Shown here piece by piece: positions 32,013 to 45,537 of a DNA stretch of 45,537 nt. The notes below the pieces were generated by a model. The model saw only the letters and a list, made by a program, of their open reading frames with translations, was not told the DNA's origin and did no database searches. The DNA comes from a virus. Made by a program: the position numbers and the translations under genes. Position 1 is the stretch's first letter; each line of letters starts with the position of its first letter. The stretch lies in the IMG/VR virus record IMGVR_UViG_3300045256_000323, positions 1-45,537 of that record, one strand, 5' to 3'.

Positions 32013-32241
32013 CACTGGGCGCAGCGCCCACGCGCCCCTGGCATGTGAGGTAGTGCGGCATGTACCGCAAGCTCAGGTCCGGCCGGTCGCCCGGTCGCTT
32101 CGGGCCGACGCGCCCGAACGCATCGACCACTACGCAGCCCCTCGGGTGCGGCTTAGCGTCGAGCCCCATCTTGCCGCCGCCAGGCTTGTCGGCCAGGACG
32201 ATCGGCTTGCCGCAGTTCTTGCAGGTAAAGGGGTTGGTCAT
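31969..32241 (-). CDS. zinc-binding phage protein, 90 aa
   Basis: Leftward gene that overlaps the 3' end of the giant gene by 44 bases (convergent). MTNPFTCKNCGKPIVLADKP has C7/C10, later KMGLDAKPHPRGC with C36, and RYMPHYLTCQG with H63 and C67. Small proteins with C-x2-C-G-x-P-I...HxxxC are frequent in phages, with unknown role. The tail from residue 69 onward is encoded through the palindrome at 32016-32030 and looks like run-on sequence. The ATG overlaps the TGA of the VRR-NUC gene (ATGA at 32241-32238). Confidence 0.72.
   Translation of the reverse strand: MTNPFTCKNCGKPIVLADKPGGGKMGLDAKPHPRGCVVVDAFGRVGPKRPGDRPDLSLRYMPHYLTCQGRVGAAPSAIARSSATSRQFEP
32016..32030. repeat. dispersed palindrome at the convergent junction
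   Basis: TGGGCGCAGCGCCCA three bases after the stop of the giant gene. It is the only inverted repeat at the meeting point of the two arms and could serve as a two-way terminator, although no T-run is present. Confidence 0.85.
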
Positions 32242-33763: not shown

Positions 33764-34879
33764 TCACGCGAACAGGCCCGGCTGGATCCTCGCCATTCGC
33801 TTCGTCGTCAGCTCCACCTGCGACTCGCGCAGGTCGATGCCGATAAAGCGCCGGCCGTGCACAAGCGAGGCGTGAGCCGTCGTTCCGGTTCCGGTGAACG
33901 GGTCAAGCACGATGCTTTCCGGCGGCGCAAACCAGCAGACAAATCGCTCAGCCACGCCCAGCGCCATTGGTGCCTCGCCTTCGTGCGCGATCGGGCAACC
34001 GAGTTTGCCCCCGCCGACCGGCACACGCAGCACGTCAGCGGCCATGATGGCATCAGAGAGGACGTTGCCCGGATTGCTGATGGGTGGCGGATCGTAGCCC
34101 ATGAACGGCTCGGGGATCGGCGGCGCGACGATCTCGCGAGCGTGGCCGCCCTTGACCATGCCGTCCTCGCCGCCGAAGTTTTGGTGGGCGATCGTTCTGA
34201 TTTTCGTGCCCGTTCGCCGGCCGCCGTCGATTTTCTTGTCGCCGATCAAGCCGCGATTGACGCGCTTCATGTCACCATTGGATCGACGTGATGGCTCTGG
34301 CCCTCGCTCGTGCGCCCGTGTCCCGTCCTTCCGTCGATGACTCGGAGCACCGCCCGCCTGATACTTCGGCGGCCGGCCGAACGCGGTGTTATCACTCCAC
34401 GCCAGCGGCAGCCGATCCGGCAAGCAGAATGTGTAGATCGGCTCCCAGTCCCGGCGCTGGTAGCGCGGCCCGCCACTGCCCGGCGTCCCGTTCCCCGGCG
34501 CATCGTCGAAATCTTCAGACTTCACCCAGCTGTAGGGCGAGGGCCCGCAAACAACCCCATCGAGCCGCGTCAGGTCCGCGACGAGCCATTCAACCGCGGC
34601 GCTGTATGATCCACCCTCGACCTTCGCGCTCATGTTCACGCACACGAGGCCGGAGCTGACTCGACAACATTCCACGATGATCAGTCGCAGCCAATCGACC
34701 CAACCTTGCGCCTTGTGCTTGAAACCGATCCCGTAGGTCCGAGCATCTTCGTATGGCGGTGAGAAGAAGACCAGCGACACCGCGCGGTCGGGCAGCTGCT
34801 TGAGCCAGGGCAGACAATCGCCTTGCTCGCAACTCCAGCGCTCGCTGCCGTTCAGAACATCCCTCGCGGTCGCGCTCAT
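33764..34879 (-). CDS. amino-methyltransferase (beta class, N4-cytosine or N6-adenine)
   Basis: 371 aa. The start is the ATG at 34879 that overlaps the previous stop (ATGA); an extended frame to 35059 has no ribosome site. Motif IV SPPY is at residues 40-43 and motif I DPFTGTGTT at 326-334, followed by RRFIGIDLRESQVELTTKRM. This order (IV before I, target-recognition part between) is the beta class. SPPY rather than DPPY leans to N4-cytosine. The central 130-290 stretch is Arg/Gly/Pro-rich and may be the recognition domain. Confidence 0.87.
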   Translation of the reverse strand: MSATARDVLNGSERWSCEQGDCLPWLKQLPDRAVSLVFFSPPYEDARTYGIGFKHKAQGWVDWLRLIIVECCRVSSGLVCVNMSAKVEGGSYSAAVEWLVADLTRLDGVVCGPSPYSWVKSEDFDDAPGNGTPGSGGPRYQRRDWEPIYTFCLPDRLPLAWSDNTAFGRPPKYQAGGAPSHRRKDGTRAHERGPEPSRRSNGDMKRVNRGLIGDKKIDGGRRTGTKIRTIAHQNFGGEDGMVKGGHAREIVAPPIPEPFMGYDPPPISNPGNVLSDAIMAADVLRVPVGGGKLGCPIAHEGEAPMALGVAERFVCWFAPPESIVLDPFTGTGTTAHASLVHGRRFIGIDLRESQVELTTKRMARIQPGLFA

Positions 34880-35574
34880 TCCGGCAGCTCCCCATGCCAC
34901 AAGAGCGACATGCACCCGAACGGCACGCGCGCTCCGCCCAAAATCGGCGGGCCGAACTTCGCCCGCGCGCGAATGTCCTTCGGCTTTCCAGCGGCGAATT
35001 CGACCCACCGATCCTGGCATCCGGTCTCGAGCACTTCTCGGCAGGGGTTTACGATCCACCCGTGAGCGTGTTCGCTGGCAACGTGTCCGACGAACACGCT
35101 GAAGCCGTAACCGTTCGGGATAAACACGACCGCATTTTCGCCAGGGATGAGCATGATCTGGTTCTCCGGTTGCAAAAGGCCAATGAGGTAGCCGAAGCGA
35201 ACGGGGCCAACGAGGCCAACGACGCTGCCGAGGCCAGCGAGGCCGCCGACGCCGCCGATGCGAGCGAGGTCGCCGACGCCGATGCCAGCGAGGCTGCCGC
35301 CGACGCCGCCGAGGGGAGCGAGGTGGCCGAAGCCACCCAGGCCACCGCGGCCAACGAGGCCGCTGCGGCCAACGAGGCCACCCCGGCCACTGCGGCTAAC
35401 GTGGCCGCCGAGGTCAAAGCGGCCGCCGCGGCCAAGGAAGGAGTCTGCGTTATGCCCGCGCCAGTAAGCCGCTTGCGGATCGCCATGCTCCTCCAGCCAA
35501 TCGGCATAGACGAGTTGCGGCCCACGGTCGCGCGGGTGAGCGTTAATCATCCGCTGAAACACGATCCGATCCAT
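34876..35574 (-). CDS. TIGR02996-type (planctomycete) domain protein with Gly-rich insert
   Basis: 232 aa; GAGGGC precedes the ATG. Residues about 18-33 read RGPQLVYADWLEEHGD, the signature of the TIGR02996 repeat-companion domain, known mainly from Planctomycetes. After PQAAYWRGHNADS follows a Gly/Leu/Val/Ser insert of about 80 residues (GRGGLVGRSGLVGRGGLGGF and similar), encoded by a simple-sequence stretch. A folded C-terminal part (ENQIMLIPGENAVVFIPNGY... DRWVEFAAGKPKDIRARAKF) comes last. It is coupled to the methyltransferase gene. Function unknown; it was likely taken from a host. Confidence 0.75.
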   Translation of the reverse strand: MDRIVFQRMINAHPRDRGPQLVYADWLEEHGDPQAAYWRGHNADSFLGRGGRFDLGGHVSRSGRGGLVGRSGLVGRGGLGGFGHLAPLGGVGGSLAGIGVGDLARIGGVGGLAGLGSVVGLVGPVRFGYLIGLLQPENQIMLIPGENAVVFIPNGYGFSVFVGHVASEHAHGWIVNPCREVLETGCQDRWVEFAAGKPKDIRARAKFGPPILGGARVPFGCMSLLWHGELPE

Positions 35575-35586
35575 TAGCGTTCGCCC

Positions 35587-35676
35587 TCAATCACTTCCCG
35601 CCGCAGCGGTCCTCTTGGCTTTGCCGCGGACGCCCGGCGTGTAGTGCAGCGGTTGGCCACAGGGGCAAATTGTCAC
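35587..35676 (-). CDS. micro-protein with CPCG motif, 29 aa
   Basis: GTG at 35676 overlaps the TGA of the HNH gene (GTGA). The product MTICPCGQPLHYTPGVRGKA ends KRTAAAGSD. C4/C6 in CPCGQPLHY are reminiscent of short zinc-binding phage proteins. The ribosome site GGAGG lies 10-14 bases upstream. It ends 12 bases before the next gene start. Support comes from coupling and the recognisable CPCG-x-PLHY pattern. Confidence 0.55.
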   Translation of the reverse strand: MTICPCGQPLHYTPGVRGKAKRTAAAGSD

Positions 35677-36071
35677 GACTGAGCCTCCAGGTAGGGCAGC
35701 ACAAGTATTGCTGCCTCAGGCGCCAGCTCGTCGAAACGGCGACGGACCGCGCCCAAGATCGGCCGTCGCGGCAGCCAGCGAAAGAACTGCACCGCGGCGA
35801 TGATTGCCTCGGGCGTCGTCTGTTCCCGCTTTGCGGCCACGGCCAGCATTCGCCCGCGCCACGCGTTGGCCCCCTGGTCGTGCTGCTCACGGTGGCAGTT
35901 GCATTGTAGCTGGACGAATGAGCCGACGCTAACCAGGTTGAAGGGAGCGTCCACGCGGCCGCCCCCCACGCTGAAGATGTGGGCCGCGTCGCGGTGCAGA
36001 CACCAGCGGCCGCACAGCTCGCAGCGACCTTTGCCGCGGAATCGCTTCAGGATGTCGGGGCGGTGCAGCAC
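35673..36071 (-). CDS. HNH-type nuclease
   Basis: 132 aa. CELCGRWCLHRDAAHIFSVG places C17/C20 before H31, and then VDAPFNLVSVGSFVQLQCNC and HREQHDQ give N45, H60 and H64. This is the zinc-linked beta-beta-alpha metal fold of HNH nucleases, with H31 the probable catalytic residue. The rest is basic and helical. It could be a homing enzyme, a restriction nuclease against rivals or a packaging helper; it is far from terminase, so the last is less likely. It overlaps its upstream neighbour by one base. Confidence 0.75.
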   Translation of the reverse strand: MLHRPDILKRFRGKGRCELCGRWCLHRDAAHIFSVGGGRVDAPFNLVSVGSFVQLQCNCHREQHDQGANAWRGRMLAVAAKREQTTPEAIIAAVQFFRWLPRRPILGAVRRRFDELAPEAAILVLPYLEAQS

Positions 36072-36286
36072 TACTTGGCTCCGACACGGTCATTATTCTT
36101 CACCTCGGACCTAGGCGACATGTCCTGATGAATCTGGGCCAGGATGGACTCGATCTTAGCGAAGATTTGGGCGATGAACAGCGACTTTTCAGCGCCGGTT
36201 CGGTGCGTCATCCCGTCGAGGATCATCCCGGCAATGACGTGCTTGTACTTGTTGAATAACTGCTCGCGGCTCATAGCCGGCCTCAC
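36071..36286 (-). CDS. hypothetical helical protein, 71 aa
   Basis: Starts at GTG 36286 (overlapping the helicase stop) or at ATG 36274, which has TGAGGC upstream; the ATG gives MSREQLFNKYKHVIAGMILD. The product is helical, with IFAKIESILAQIHQDM and a basic end. It lies between the helicase and HNH genes. No motif recognised; the Lys/Tyr start and helices suggest a small nucleic-acid or protein-binding partner. Confidence 0.68.
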   Translation of the reverse strand: MRPAMSREQLFNKYKHVIAGMILDGMTHRTGAEKSLFIAQIFAKIESILAQIHQDMSPRSEVKNNDRVGAK

Positions 36287-37914
36287 AATCTAAGCCGTTC
36301 CGGCGGCACGGAACGCACTCGAAGGTAAAAGTCGTACTCGTTCAGCGGCATGTAGCGGAGGGTGCGCGGCGGCCAGTAGTGGTGCTTGCTGACAAACCAG
36401 CCCATCGCCTGTAGGAAGGTCATGCCGCTCTTACCGTACTTGGCCCCGAAATAGCACCGCTCCCAGAGCTTTTGTGTGTCGGCCTTCTCCAACTCTCGGC
36501 GCGGGGCGAATAGTGGCTCTTCGTGCTCGACAAGTTGGCCATCAATCTCTCGGACCAATCTGCTCCGCTTGGCCGTCTTGCCGCACGTTGGGCAGACGCC
36601 GCGGAGCATGATGAGCCCGCACTGCGGGCATCGCAGTGGCTCGGGCGCCTTCTTCGACCTGATCCTCTCCTGCCGCGCCCCGACGTAGGCGTTGCCTGGA
36701 AGGCCGAGCTGCCAGTTGCGGTCTTCGTTGAGCGATCCCAGTCGCCACCAATGGCCGCCGTGATCCTGAATCGTGACGAATTCTTTCGGGCCGTAGCGAG
36801 CGTTCGTCTCCTCGTCCCTGTCGGATCGCAGGAAGCGGCCGCCGGCCTGAAGGTAGCTTTGCAGCGAGCCAAACATCGTCGCCAGGACGCCGTGCCGAAC
36901 AAACGGCAGGTCGATTCCCTCGCGCATCACGAAGCGGTTGCAGATCACCTTCACGTCGCCACCTCGGAAGAGGGCAATGATCTTGTCTCGGCCAGCGCTT
37001 GAAGTCGGCTCAAGGCAACCGTCGAGCCACAGGTCCTCGCCGTCGATGTGGGCCGAGCGAATCCCGGCAGCAAGGAACTGCTCGGCGAACCAGACGCTTT
37101 CGCGCACCCCGGGGGCGAACAGCAGGGTCGGTAGATGTCTGGGATTGAGCAGTTGGAACTGCTCCAGCACCCGGCCGAAGATTCCCGCCGTCATTACTGC
37201 CTTGATCGCTTGCCGCTCACTGATTTCCTCATCGGGTCGGAGCCTGAGCTTTTTCATGTCCGGCTCGTCGCAGCCGTGGTGGCGAGCCATCACCGTCGCG
37301 CCACAGCGACGACACTCGCTCGGCAGGCCGGCGACGATCAGCTGCCGGCAGAAATCCAGTCCGATCGGCGTTGCCGTAAACAGCACGACATCCGAGCCGG
37401 CGTTGACGTAGTGCGTGATGATCGCCCTCGCCCGTGGTCCCGTCATCAGGTGCCCCTCGTCGAAAACAACGAGGTCCGCCGGGAACAAGTCGCGTTGTCT
37501 GCTCTGAAGCCGGTGCCGTTCCCTCAGGTACTCTTCGACCCCAATGTTGCCAAGCGCGAAGTCTTCATCGACTTGTTTCAACTTGGCCGGCACGCGCATC
37601 GACCGCTCGTCGTCAGTTTGGATGCTGGCGATCTGGAAGAGCGCCGAGTGGTCTGCCGCCAGCCCGGCCGCCCGCACGCCATGTTCAAGGCCCATTTCGA
37701 GCATTGATCGGCTCAGTTGGTCAATGAGCAACCGGCGGTTGCAGTACAAGAGGGCCGGCCGGCCGCGACTAACGTATCGCCAGACAAGTTCGGCGATTTC
37801 GCGGCTTTTGCCCGAGCCCGTCGTTCCCGTCAGGCAGACCGGCGACAAGCCTGCGGCAAAGGCGGCCAGCGTACCCTCGACGCCGGCAACCTGATGAGGC
37901 CATAGTTCGTGCAT
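36283..37914 (-). CDS. SF2 helicase with zinc ribbon
   Basis: 543 aa. Motifs in order: Q/I region MHELWPHQVAGVEGTLAAFA; Walker A GTTGSGKS (30-37); DEGH box (152-155); FTATP motif III (179-183); motif VI QAGGRFLRSDRD (356-367). A zinc ribbon follows (C429, C432, C441, C444 in RCPQCG...CPTCG). The enzyme should unwind or remodel duplex nucleic acid using ATP. The overall plan resembles phage replication or recombination helicases of the UvsW/RecG-like broad class. The gene next to it downstream is coupled. Confidence 0.87.
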   Translation of the reverse strand: MHELWPHQVAGVEGTLAAFAAGLSPVCLTGTTGSGKSREIAELVWRYVSRGRPALLYCNRRLLIDQLSRSMLEMGLEHGVRAAGLAADHSALFQIASIQTDDERSMRVPAKLKQVDEDFALGNIGVEEYLRERHRLQSRQRDLFPADLVVFDEGHLMTGPRARAIITHYVNAGSDVVLFTATPIGLDFCRQLIVAGLPSECRRCGATVMARHHGCDEPDMKKLRLRPDEEISERQAIKAVMTAGIFGRVLEQFQLLNPRHLPTLLFAPGVRESVWFAEQFLAAGIRSAHIDGEDLWLDGCLEPTSSAGRDKIIALFRGGDVKVICNRFVMREGIDLPFVRHGVLATMFGSLQSYLQAGGRFLRSDRDEETNARYGPKEFVTIQDHGGHWWRLGSLNEDRNWQLGLPGNAYVGARQERIRSKKAPEPLRCPQCGLIMLRGVCPTCGKTAKRSRLVREIDGQLVEHEEPLFAPRRELEKADTQKLWERCYFGAKYGKSGMTFLQAMGWFVSKHHYWPPRTLRYMPLNEYDFYLRVRSVPPERLRL

Positions 37915-42690: not shown

Positions 42691-43374
42691 TCAATTATTG
42701 ACGTTAAGTGCGGTCGCCGTCACCGTAGCCGTAACTCTCGCCGAAGCTGCGGTCTGCCGCCGGCCGAGCAACTGGCCGTGGCGATACTTCGCGACGAATC
42801 GCTTGCCGTCGGCGCAAACTGTTTCCCGCCGGCCGTGCAACTTGCCGGCGCGGTATCGCTCGACAATCCGCGTGCCATCGGCGCGCACCTCTTCCCGCCG
42901 GCCGTGCAACTTGCCGTCGCGGCATCGCTCGACAATCCGCGTGCCATCGTCGCGGACAATTTCCCGCCGGCCGTCTCTCGGCCGGCCACTCCCAACGCGG
43001 ACTGGCACTCCGTACCGGGCACGGAGAGCGGCGGCGGCGCCTGCGTCGGCAGGGTGTAAGGTGATGCTAACTATTTCCATCCGCTCGCAGCGCAGGCCGC
43101 GAGTGGAAAACGCGGCTCTGCCGTCGCACAAGACATGTACTACTGCCTCTCCCGAACGATCGGGCGCGGCATGCGGCGTGTAGCACACCGCATGCAGCCC
43201 ACACTCTCCGAGCACGGCGGCCGAGTCCGTCCAGGAGTCGGTCGTCATGACGGCCGACTCCCAGGGGGTGTGGCGATGCGGCGAGCGGAGCAAGTCCCCG
43301 CCCAACCGACAAACGCGGGTAGCCATGACGCGGCCGTCAGGGGCGACGGCGTGGGGTTCGGGGATGGGGGTCAC
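42691..43374 (-). CDS. GLHA-domain + MORN-like repeat protein A, 227 aa
   Basis: GTG 43374 overlaps the stop of the KRPA micropeptide (GTGA). The N-terminal domain (about 130 residues) includes MATRVCRLGGDLLRSPHRHT and VLGECGLHAVCYTP (GLHA at 59-62), recalling a domain seen in many phage proteins of unknown role. The C-terminal part has three clean 23-residue repeats of the type GRREEVRADGTRIVERYRAG, like MORN_2/YwqK antitoxin repeats. It shares long stretches of near-identical DNA with proteins B and C. It may be a binding scaffold or anti-host factor; the function is not known. Confidence 0.78.
   Translation of the reverse strand: MTPIPEPHAVAPDGRVMATRVCRLGGDLLRSPHRHTPWESAVMTTDSWTDSAAVLGECGLHAVCYTPHAAPDRSGEAVVHVLCDGRAAFSTRGLRCERMEIVSITLHPADAGAAAALRARYGVPVRVGSGRPRDGRREIVRDDGTRIVERCRDGKLHGRREEVRADGTRIVERYRAGKLHGRRETVCADGKRFVAKYRHGQLLGRRQTAASARVTATVTATALNVNN
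42756..42962 (-). repeat. 69-bp tandem repeats in gene A, three full units
   Basis: Units start at 42756, 42825 and 42894 with a partial unit at 42963, at exact 69-bp spacing marked by CCCGCCGGCCG. Each unit encodes 23 residues. Compare eight full units in gene B. Confidence 0.9.
43236..43362. repeat. internal copy of the 127-bp terminal repeat
   Basis: Identical to 1-127 and 45411-45537. The match between gene A and gene C extends about 68 bp further upstream (from 43168 and 45342), so about 195 bp are exactly shared. Confidence 0.9.
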
Positions 43375-43487
43375 GACGCCACCCCCGCGGCCGCTGGCCG
43401 CTTCGCTGGCCGCTTCGCTGGCCGCTTCGCTGGCCGCTTCGCTGGCCGGCGAACTACCGTCGTCACGCGGATGATTTTTAGTTTCAT
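43371..43487 (-). CDS. KRPA-repeat micropeptide, 38 aa (copy 1)
   Basis: ATG 43487 follows GAGAGGGCAAGCA and the stop TGA overlaps the GTG of gene A. Product: MKLKIIRVTTVVRR, then four PAKR-type repeats and PAAAGVAS. The KRPA part is encoded by 12-base repeats (GCTGGCCGCTTC on the top strand). A tail of Lys, Arg and Pro resembles nucleic-acid-binding tails of bacterial histone-like proteins. Coupled translation suggests it tunes expression of gene A or acts with it. The second copy is at 44535-44639. Confidence 0.6.
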   Translation of the reverse strand: MKLKIIRVTTVVRRPAKRPAKRPAKRPAKRPAAAGVAS

Positions 43488-43541
43488 TGCTTGCCCTCTC
43501 TAGGTTTGCCGCGAGCGATCGGGCCGCGGCGCCCGCTGGTC
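43485..43541. repeat. intergenic module copy before gene B end
   Basis: Same order as at 446-500 (CATTGCTTGCCCTCTCTAGG, TTTGCCGCGAGC, GATCGGGCCGCGGCGCCCG); it holds the ribosome site of the micropeptide and the leader between gene B and the micropeptide. Confidence 0.65.
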
Positions 43542-44538
43542 ATGTGGTCCGCGATTCGTCAGCGCGAATCTCTTTACGCCGGCCGAGCAACTGGCCGTGG
43601 CGATACTTCGCGACGAATCGCGTACCATCGGCGCAAACTGTTTCCCGCCGGCCGTGCAACTTGCCGGCGCGGTATCGCTCGACAATGCGCGTGCCGTCGG
43701 CGTGAACCTCTTCCCGCCGGCCGTGCAACTGACCGGCGCGGTATCGCTCGACAATGCGCGTGCCGTCGGCGCACACCTCTTCCCGCCGGCCGTGCAACTG
43801 GTTATCGCGATAGTTCTCCGTGATTCGCGTGCCGTCGGCGCGCACCTCTTCCCGCCGGCCGTGCCGCTGGTCATCGCGATAGTTCTCCGTGATTCGCGTG
43901 CCGTTGGCGTAAACTGTTTCCCGCCGGCCGTGCAACTGACCGGCGCGGTAGTGCGCTGTGATCCGCTTGCCGTTGGCGAAAACTGTTTCCCGCCGGCCGT
44001 GTGGCTTGCCGGCGCGGTAATGCGCTACGGTCCGCTCGCCGCTGGCGTAAACCTCTTCCCGCCGGCCGTGGCACTTGCCGTCGCGGCATCGCTCGACAAC
44101 CCGCGTGCCATCGGCCCAGACTACTTCCCGCCGGCCGTTTCTCGGCCAGTCACTCCCAACGCGGACTGGCACTCCGTACCGGGCACGGAGAGCGGCGGCG
44201 GCGCCTGCGTCGGCAGGGTGTAAGGTGATGCTAACTATTTCCATCCGCTCGCAGCGCAGGCCGCGAGTGGAAAACGCAGCTCTACCGTCGCACAAGACAT
44301 GTACTACTGCCTCTCCCGAACGATCGGGCACGGCACGAGGCGCGTAGCATACCGCGTGTAGTCCGCACTCTCCGAGCACGGCGGCCGAGTCCGTCCAGGA
44401 ATCGGTCGTCATGACGGCCGACTCCCAGGGGGTGAGGCGATGCGGCGAGCGGAGCAAGTCCCCGATCAGCCGGCAGATTCGCGTAGCCATTACGCGGCCG
44501 TCAGGCGCGACAGCGTGGGGTTCGGGGATGGGGGTCAC
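43540..44538 (-). CDS. GLHA-domain + MORN-like repeat protein B, 332 aa
   Basis: GTG 44538 overlaps the stop of the second KRPA micropeptide (GTGA). The N-terminal domain is almost the same as in protein A (GLHA present; ICRLIGDLLRSPHRLTPWES). The C-terminal domain has eight full 23-residue repeats, with positions 5-15 varying (RADGTRIT, ASGERTVA, ANGKRITA). It ends GRRKEIRADESRTT. Proteins with this repeat are often antitoxin or binding modules. The larger repeat number and relation to A and C indicate duplication and repeat expansion. Confidence 0.78.
   Translation of the reverse strand: MTPIPEPHAVAPDGRVMATRICRLIGDLLRSPHRLTPWESAVMTTDSWTDSAAVLGECGLHAVCYAPRAVPDRSGEAVVHVLCDGRAAFSTRGLRCERMEIVSITLHPADAGAAAALRARYGVPVRVGSDWPRNGRREVVWADGTRVVERCRDGKCHGRREEVYASGERTVAHYRAGKPHGRRETVFANGKRITAHYRAGQLHGRRETVYANGTRITENYRDDQRHGRREEVRADGTRITENYRDNQLHGRREEVCADGTRIVERYRAGQLHGRREEVHADGTRIVERYRAGKLHGRRETVCADGTRFVAKYRHGQLLGRRKEIRADESRTT
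43575..44126 (-). repeat. 69-bp tandem repeats in gene B, eight full units
   Basis: Units start at 43575, 43644, 43713, 43782, 43851, 43920, 43989 and 44058, with a partial unit at 44127. Spacing is exactly 69 bp throughout. Sequence between units differs most at the codons that vary in the protein. Confidence 0.92.
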
Positions 44539-44639
44539 GACGCCACCCCCGCGGCCGCTGGCCGCTTCACTGGCCGCTTCGCTGGCCGCTTCACTGGCCG
44601 ACGAACTACCGTCGTCACGCGGATGATTTTCAGTTTCAT
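44535..44639 (-). CDS. KRPA-repeat micropeptide, 34 aa (copy 2)
   Basis: ATG 44639 follows the same GAGAGGGCAAGCA site; its stop overlaps the GTG of gene B (GTGA). Product MKLKIIRVTTVVRRP, then KRPA/KRPV repeats and AAAGVAS. Compared with copy 1 it has one fewer 12-base unit and two Val for Ala changes. Conservation of frame, start, stop overlap and repeat type in both copies supports real translation. No copy precedes gene C. Confidence 0.6.
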   Translation of the reverse strand: MKLKIIRVTTVVRRPVKRPAKRPVKRPAAAGVAS

Positions 44640-44693
44640 TGCTTGCCCTCTCTAGGTTTGCCGCGAGCGATCGGGCCGCGGCGCCCGCTGGTC
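44637..44693. repeat. intergenic module copy before gene C end
   Basis: Nearly identical to 43485-43541: micropeptide ribosome site, TCTAGGTTTGCCGCGAGC, then GATCGGGCCGCGGCGCCCGC up to the stop of gene C. Confidence 0.65.
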
Positions 44694-45537
44694 ATGTGGT
44701 CCGCGATTCGTCAGCGCGAATCTCTTTACGCTGGCCGTGTAACAGGCCGTGGCGATACTCCGCGATGAATCGCGTGCCGTCGGCGCAGACCAGTTCCCAG
44801 GCGCCGTGCCGCCGGTCATCGCGGTAGTGCGACACTACCTTTGTGCCGTCAGCTCGGGTCTCCTCGCGCCGACCGTGCAACTTGCCGGCGCGGTAGTGCG
44901 ACACTACCTTTGTGCCGTCGTCATAGACCGCCTCGTACTGGCCGTGTAACTGACCGTCGCGGTAGTGCGCTGTGACACGCCCCATGCCAATACGAATTTC
45001 TTCGTATCCGTGCAAATCGCCGTTGCAGTATTCCGAAATAACTCGTGTTCCGTCAGCATAAAGCACATCGCGGATGCCGTGCAGGCGGCCGGCCTGGAAA
45101 CGCTCTATAGTCACTGCCCCGTCAGCGTCCAGCGATTCGCACTCCCCGTCTCGGGGCAGCATCGGAGCAACATCTACTGGCACTCCGTACCGGGCACGGA
45201 GAGCGGCGGCGGCGCTTGCATCGGCGGGGTGCAGTACGATACGGTCAATCTCCATGAACTCGCAGCGCAGCCGGCGGGCGAAAACAGCGCGCTTGCCGCT
45301 ACAGATTACATGCACGATTGCTTCGCCGCGATTGCCCGGCACGGCATGCGGCGTGTAGCACACCGCATGCAGCCCACACTCTCCGAGCACGGCGGCCGAG
45401 TCCGTCCAGGAGTCGGTCGTCATGACGGCCGACTCCCAGGGGGTGTGGCGATGCGGCGAGCGGAGCAAGTCCCCGCCCAACCGACAAACGCGGGTAGCCA
45501 TGACGCGGCCGTCAGGGGCGACGGCGTGGGGTTCGGG
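44692..45537 (-). CDS. GLHA-domain + MORN-like repeat protein C (5' part lies at 1-139)
   Basis: Within the window the frame is open from the right end to TGA at 44694-44692. The circular join adds the start at 139, giving 285 residues. The N-terminal domain matches A and B, then diverges around residue 130 (GVPVDVAPMLPRDGECESLD). The repeats are more diverged (HGIRDVLYADGTRVISEYCN; HGQYEAVYDDGTKVVSHYRA) and not all are 69 bp. The ending matches B (LHGQRKEIRADESRTT). C looks like the oldest or most diverged member. Function unknown. Confidence 0.78.
   Translation of the reverse strand, partial: PEPHAVAPDGRVMATRVCRLGGDLLRSPHRHTPWESAVMTTDSWTDSAAVLGECGLHAVCYTPHAVPGNRGEAIVHVICSGKRAVFARRLRCEFMEIDRIVLHPADASAAAALRARYGVPVDVAPMLPRDGECESLDADGAVTIERFQAGRLHGIRDVLYADGTRVISEYCNGDLHGYEEIRIGMGRVTAHYRDGQLHGQYEAVYDDGTKVVSHYRAGKLHGRREETRADGTKVVSHYRDDRRHGAWELVCADGTRFIAEYRHGLLHGQRKEIRADESRTT
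44796..45002 (-). repeat. degenerate 69-bp repeats in gene C
   Basis: Units can be aligned starting at 44796, 44865 and 44934 (69 bp apart), and a fourth near 45003 is 3 bases shorter. They are less alike than units in A and B. Confidence 0.8.
45411..45537. repeat. terminal direct repeat, right copy
   Basis: Identical to 1-127. The repeat ends at GTTCGGG, exactly where gene A and the start of the window diverge in sequence. Confidence 0.95.

Follow-up and report, generated by a model that had tools for sequence, protein, structure and literature searches.

A phage protein that links a TIGR02996 domain to a conserved C-terminal domain through a glycine-repeat tract of variable length, and its relation to DUF6948 phage proteins

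The window, by which we mean the whole 45,537-nucleotide stretch of viral DNA analysed here, encodes on its minus strand a 232-residue protein, P0001 (34876–35574), with three consecutive parts: a TIGR02996 domain (residues 6–40; 35455–35559), a glycine-rich tract of 88 residues (47–134; 35173–35436) and a C-terminal domain (135–232; 34879–35172). The stop codon overlaps an ATG of the next gene in an ATGA at 34876–34879. The downstream neighbour is an N6/N4 DNA methyltransferase (PF01555, phrog_67), whose listed ORF extends from 35059 (GTG) to 33764, and upstream lie a probable HNH endonuclease (35673–36071; phrog_740, E 2.2e-4) and a superfamily 2 helicase (36283–37914; PF04851, PF00271), all on the minus strand. 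Pfam and PHROG matches add a RecE-like exonuclease and an Erf-like annealing protein to the same cluster, and P0001 is a protein of this early (DNA-metabolism) phage gene cluster. The same three-part plan is found in P0002, encoded on a second phage contig (L002) of 34,970 bases, where identity to P0001 reaches 82% in the N-terminal part and 77% over 97 residues of the C-terminal part, but the tract has only 48 residues. Substitutions between the two genes fall 3/3/15 over the three codon positions in the N-terminal block and 22/10/51 in the C-terminal block. Since this second phage keeps the same gene with such similar flanks around a much shorter tract, the reading frame is, judged from these two sequences, real, and the tract is variable in length, as the original prediction had anticipated from its simple-sequence character. 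No relatives of P0001 were found among 50,697 phage records.

A profile search bears out the predicted TIGR02996 domain in P0001 (E 3.2e-12, 46 bits against a curated NCBIfam cut-off of 29.05), and a genome-level search of the window places it at 35455–35562 with 49.3 bits. The original prediction had described this domain as interrupted by the glycine-rich insert, which does not hold, since a complete domain precedes the tract and a separate conserved domain follows it, so that the tract joins two domains. To our knowledge no function is known for TIGR02996 (rpt_mate_G_obs). The domain was expected to be expanded in Gemmata-like planctomycetes, and three planctomycete genomes indeed contain 79, 44 and 9 copies, against none in 14 control genomes. 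P0001 resembles the proteins of this family in its N-terminal domain and in its association with planctomycetes, but in many of the bacterial members, read by eye, the domain is followed by leucine-rich-repeat-like sequence or by some other folded part, whereas P0001 goes on into the glycine tract and a different, separate domain; leucine-rich or similar repeats are absent after TIGR02996 in P0001, and the profile does not require them. The contig of P0002 has five TIGR02996 matches in all (L037 and L038), three of them above the cut-off, with a glycine tract in only one.

When P0001 was searched against GTDB genomes, 22 of the 23 loci found were in Planctomycetota records. A TIGR02996-like protein at L007 520–1776 lies in a metagenome-assembled genome labelled Bacteroidales, possibly on a misplaced contig. 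Independent backing for a planctomycete host comes from the structural genes: the portal-like protein of the window has a homologue in the planctomycete genome G481 (E 7.5e-50), where seven structural ORFs of the window are colinear at 25–50% identity on a 7-Mb contig, in what appears to be a prophage-like relative within a planctomycete chromosome. Together with the distribution of TIGR02996, these colinear ORFs make a planctomycete host, first hinted at by the domain itself, well supported, although not proven, and the combination of TIGR02996 with a glycine tract is a possible marker for planctomycete phages. The window also contains, at 32031–32115 on the plus strand, a predicted tRNA-Gly of 85 nt with the anticodon ACC, which is unusual for bacteria and may be a false positive.

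The tract, measured at positions close to the predicted 35190–35440, contains 33 glycines, 15 leucines and 10 valines, arranged as G-L-x or L-x-G triplets with a 9-nt period. Autocorrelation of its DNA is about 0.60–0.65 at multiples of 9 compared with about 0.41 at 3, 6, 12 and 15, and Tandem Repeats Finder (TRF) reports periods of 9, 18, 27 and 54. Glycine occurs at every third residue to an extent reached in 22 of 20,000 shuffles of the window tract and in none of 20,000 for the L002 tract, which consists of pure G-L-x triplets with the same 9-nt period. In this spacing P0001 is similar to collagen-like phage proteins, from which it differs in being nearly free of proline and in having no profile match over the cut-off: the collagen profile does not match P0001 and reaches only E 0.9 (9.8 bits against a cut-off of 27.2) on the L002 orthologue. 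Membership of P0001 in the collagen family was rejected on these two grounds.

Pattern scans revealed the same succession of TIGR02996, glycine tract and C-terminal domain in three further viral contigs, L175, L267 and L274, although in L274 only the YxDWL motif of TIGR02996 is present, below the profile threshold. Two more contigs, L240 and L257, have the N-terminal part and the tract, within which their sequence ends; structural genes on the L240 contig, including terminase and portal, have counterparts in the window phage at 29–42% identity. The plan also occurs in five genes of one Gemmataceae genome (G017), in which the TIGR02996 and C-terminal parts are nearly invariant while the tracts are hypervariable. 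This fused form is rare in genomes, since a scan of 102 genomes of the order with the glycine-tract pattern yielded the G017 array and a single unrelated match; two further glycine-pattern scans added no new members, and an initial scan of genomes with less suitable patterns had found nothing. The original prediction thus stands as regards TIGR02996, the host clue and the length change, falls as regards the interruption, and missed both the C-terminal domain and this recurring plan. The five-gene array (L082 4379–12650) is covered by an IMG/VR viral record. A location inside a prophage was considered and not adopted, as acyltransferase and phytochrome genes are likewise found in the record, which shares only one structural gene with the window; the acyltransferase and phytochrome genes make its boundary look too wide.

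The C-terminal domain of the G017 proteins is DUF6948 (PF22253; 92 bits against a profile threshold of 27 bits). For L175 the Pfam match to DUF6948 is sub-threshold (E 0.005), and a comparison of the L175/L267 domain with DUF6948 in hhalign gives a probability of 79% and E 1.6e-5, so that, by sequence profile, these two domains are distant, borderline members of DUF6948. The DUF6948 probe sequence was confirmed as PF22253. Among 80 viral DUF6948 loci, which stand nearest to the query set and are therefore not a random sample, a strict Gly-X gene lies directly downstream of DUF6948 in 75, with only 3 strict Gly-X tracts elsewhere in the same loci; a looser criterion, with annotated phages included, gives 84 of 88. 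Counted from the last base of the DUF6948 stop codon, the ATG of the Gly-X gene has a median position of −12 nt. Residue X is S, Y or D at 1918 of 2158 positions, and the serine codons are almost exclusively TCN. In one phage record that L175 matches, the gene overlapping that of a DUF6948-like protein encodes 104 residues of pure Gly-X and is annotated as lamprin. In eight Pectobacterium and Dickeya phages every difference in tract length is a multiple of 6 nt, and in the Pectobacterium phages Ymer and Amona DUF6948 and the downstream DNA are identical while the tracts differ. DUF6948, which is common in phages, is therefore tied to an adjacent or fused glycine-repeat protein that differs even between otherwise identical loci. 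No paper on this link was found in a limited search of the open-access literature. At L075 871–1485 (MW202478), where the Gly-X tract precedes DUF6948, an annotated CDS uses a different frame, in which the tract becomes an Ala-Met repeat, and this annotation is probably wrong.

In P0001, as in the DUF6948 phage proteins with their adjacent Gly-X genes, a small domain goes together with a hypervariable glycine tract, but in a different form. The usual arrangement consists of two overlapping genes, lacks TIGR02996 and uses G-[SDY] repeats with a 6-nt period, while P0001 is a single fused protein with G-L-x repeats of 9 nt, and because of this different repeat its tract may behave differently from the two-gene version. 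Furthermore, the DUF6948 of the fused relatives is either genuine or borderline, whereas the C-terminal domain of the window protein, although it occupies the position of DUF6948 in the other members as a third, conserved domain, matches nothing in Pfam or PHROG and nothing significantly in the PDB. DUF6948 itself is not matched in Pfam at E ≤ 10, PDB sequence searches returned chance-level matches only, and hhalign aligns the two domains in the expected register with a probability of just 0.2–5%. As the register is the expected one but the comparison lacks significance, the domain is the positional equivalent of DUF6948 and is not filed as DUF6948. A pattern for its conserved peptide found no other relative, and weak matches in 95 Gemmataceae genomes were discarded as bacterial homologues, those that were read being mostly diaminopimelate epimerase and chance frames. 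An AlphaFold model of full P0001 is too poor to use (pLDDT 32); the β-β-β-α order in its low-confidence C-terminal part, like that in the confident DUF6948 model, is suggestive only. On balance we lean slightly towards the C-terminal domain of P0001 being DUF6948/Sm-like.

What could such a domain be? For the C-terminal domain of L175, AlphaFold run on an alignment of 48 sequences gave a confident model (pLDDT 89.5, pTM 0.81). Nearly all Foldseek matches of this model in the PDB are Sm/LSm proteins, with probability up to 1.00 and a TM-score, normalised by target length, of as much as 0.70; the best E is 0.016 and none is ≤ 0.001, though the matches agree. Among viral models Foldseek returns DUF6948 proteins and a phage Sm-like protein. 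A PDB sequence search gives no sequence-level match of the domain to Sm/LSm. DUF6948 is thus predicted, from the modelled domain of this fused relative, to be a small barrel with an Sm/LSm-like fold, which points to RNA biology. Ring formation and RNA binding characterise Sm, LSm and Hfq proteins, several of which carry low-complexity tails (SmB, SmD1, LSm4, and the C-terminal tail of Hfq) that help to build RNA granules. DUF6948 resembles these tailed proteins both in its predicted fold and in the low-complexity chain that accompanies it; in the fused form, however, the order is chain and then barrel.

We therefore tentatively propose, as a reading that we hold at somewhat less than even weight, that P0001 is a fused, host-adapted version of a phage module made of an Sm-like barrel and a glycine repeat, perhaps acting as an RNA-binding condensate scaffold. 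The barrel end of P0001 and of DUF6948 would form a ring or bind RNA, as Sm, LSm and Hfq do; the glycine chain would serve as a flexible, weakly sticky, multivalent polymer that draws barrel complexes together, within the infected cell, as a condensate or scaffold; and TIGR02996 would tether P0001 to a partner in the planctomycete host. Shifts in tract length by whole repeat units would keep the frame and retune the polymer. The individual steps of RNA binding, condensation and tethering, drawn from the behaviour of Sm, LSm and Hfq proteins and their granule-building tails, are each possible but doubtful. A broader and still less secure extension would be that phages commonly encode an Sm/LSm-like barrel together with a hypervariable glycine polymer that builds an RNA–protein condensate, and that planctomycete phages have fused both behind TIGR02996 into a counterpart of the low-complexity-tailed Sm/LSm proteins. 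If this were true, the low-complexity scaffolds of eukaryotic RNA granules would have tunable analogues in phages.

The chief alternative sees the tract as a near-neutral spacer: its in-frame repeats would arise and be rearranged by replication slippage, and the end domains alone would be of consequence. Changes by whole repeat units, a repeat period that differs between the window and the other members and a range of 48–88 residues between orthologues are all as such a spacer would have it, and we regard it as possible, though not probable. It fails to explain, however, why the repeat persists as a separate, coupled gene beside DUF6948 in nearly all of the contigs analysed, which counts against it, nor does the restriction of X mostly to S, Y and D, with serine nearly always encoded by TCN, sit well with neutrality. 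Alternatively, phage and host could be in conflict over the tract, which would then be a hypervariable surface for decoy or recognition that evades or blocks a host sensor and is diversified between phages by recombination. Such a role is unlikely, since the narrow alphabet of X is unlike a binding surface under diversifying selection, even though Ymer and Amona differ in the tract only, the ends of the G017 array are near-invariant around different tracts, and P0001 adjoins DNA methyltransferase and HNH genes. A virion or fibre protein, with the repeat as a collagen-, silk- or adhesin-like stalk, is very improbable: period-3 glycine recalls collagen, and a collagen-like tail fibre built with G-P-A triplets is indeed encoded by this phage (23443–24300, plus strand), but P0001 is encoded on the opposite strand within the helicase, methyltransferase and recombination cluster, its orthologue barely registers with the collagen profile, proline is almost absent and other family members carry Gly-X dipeptides. 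Finally, the frame through the tract might go untranslated, the ORF being open only by chance because the repeats are GC-rich. The repeat is open in several frames, one of them antisense (ORF at 34894–35577), but this idea is extremely unlikely given the frame held through the shorter L002 tract, the third-position bias in both flanks and the overlap of the stop with a start codon of the next gene. The fused barrel and glycine-repeat module remains, among these readings, the one we prefer.

Other repeats are found towards the end of the window, where three adjacent ORFs (42691–45501, minus strand) contain 69-nt (23-residue) repeats such as EIVRADGTRIVERYRDGKLHGRR, one of these ORFs having a Tcp10_C/G-box-like Pfam match (E 9e-12). 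Between the genes with the 69-nt repeats, at 43392–43448 and 44558–44600, lie perfect or near-perfect 12-nt tandem repeats resembling CTGGCCGCTTCA.
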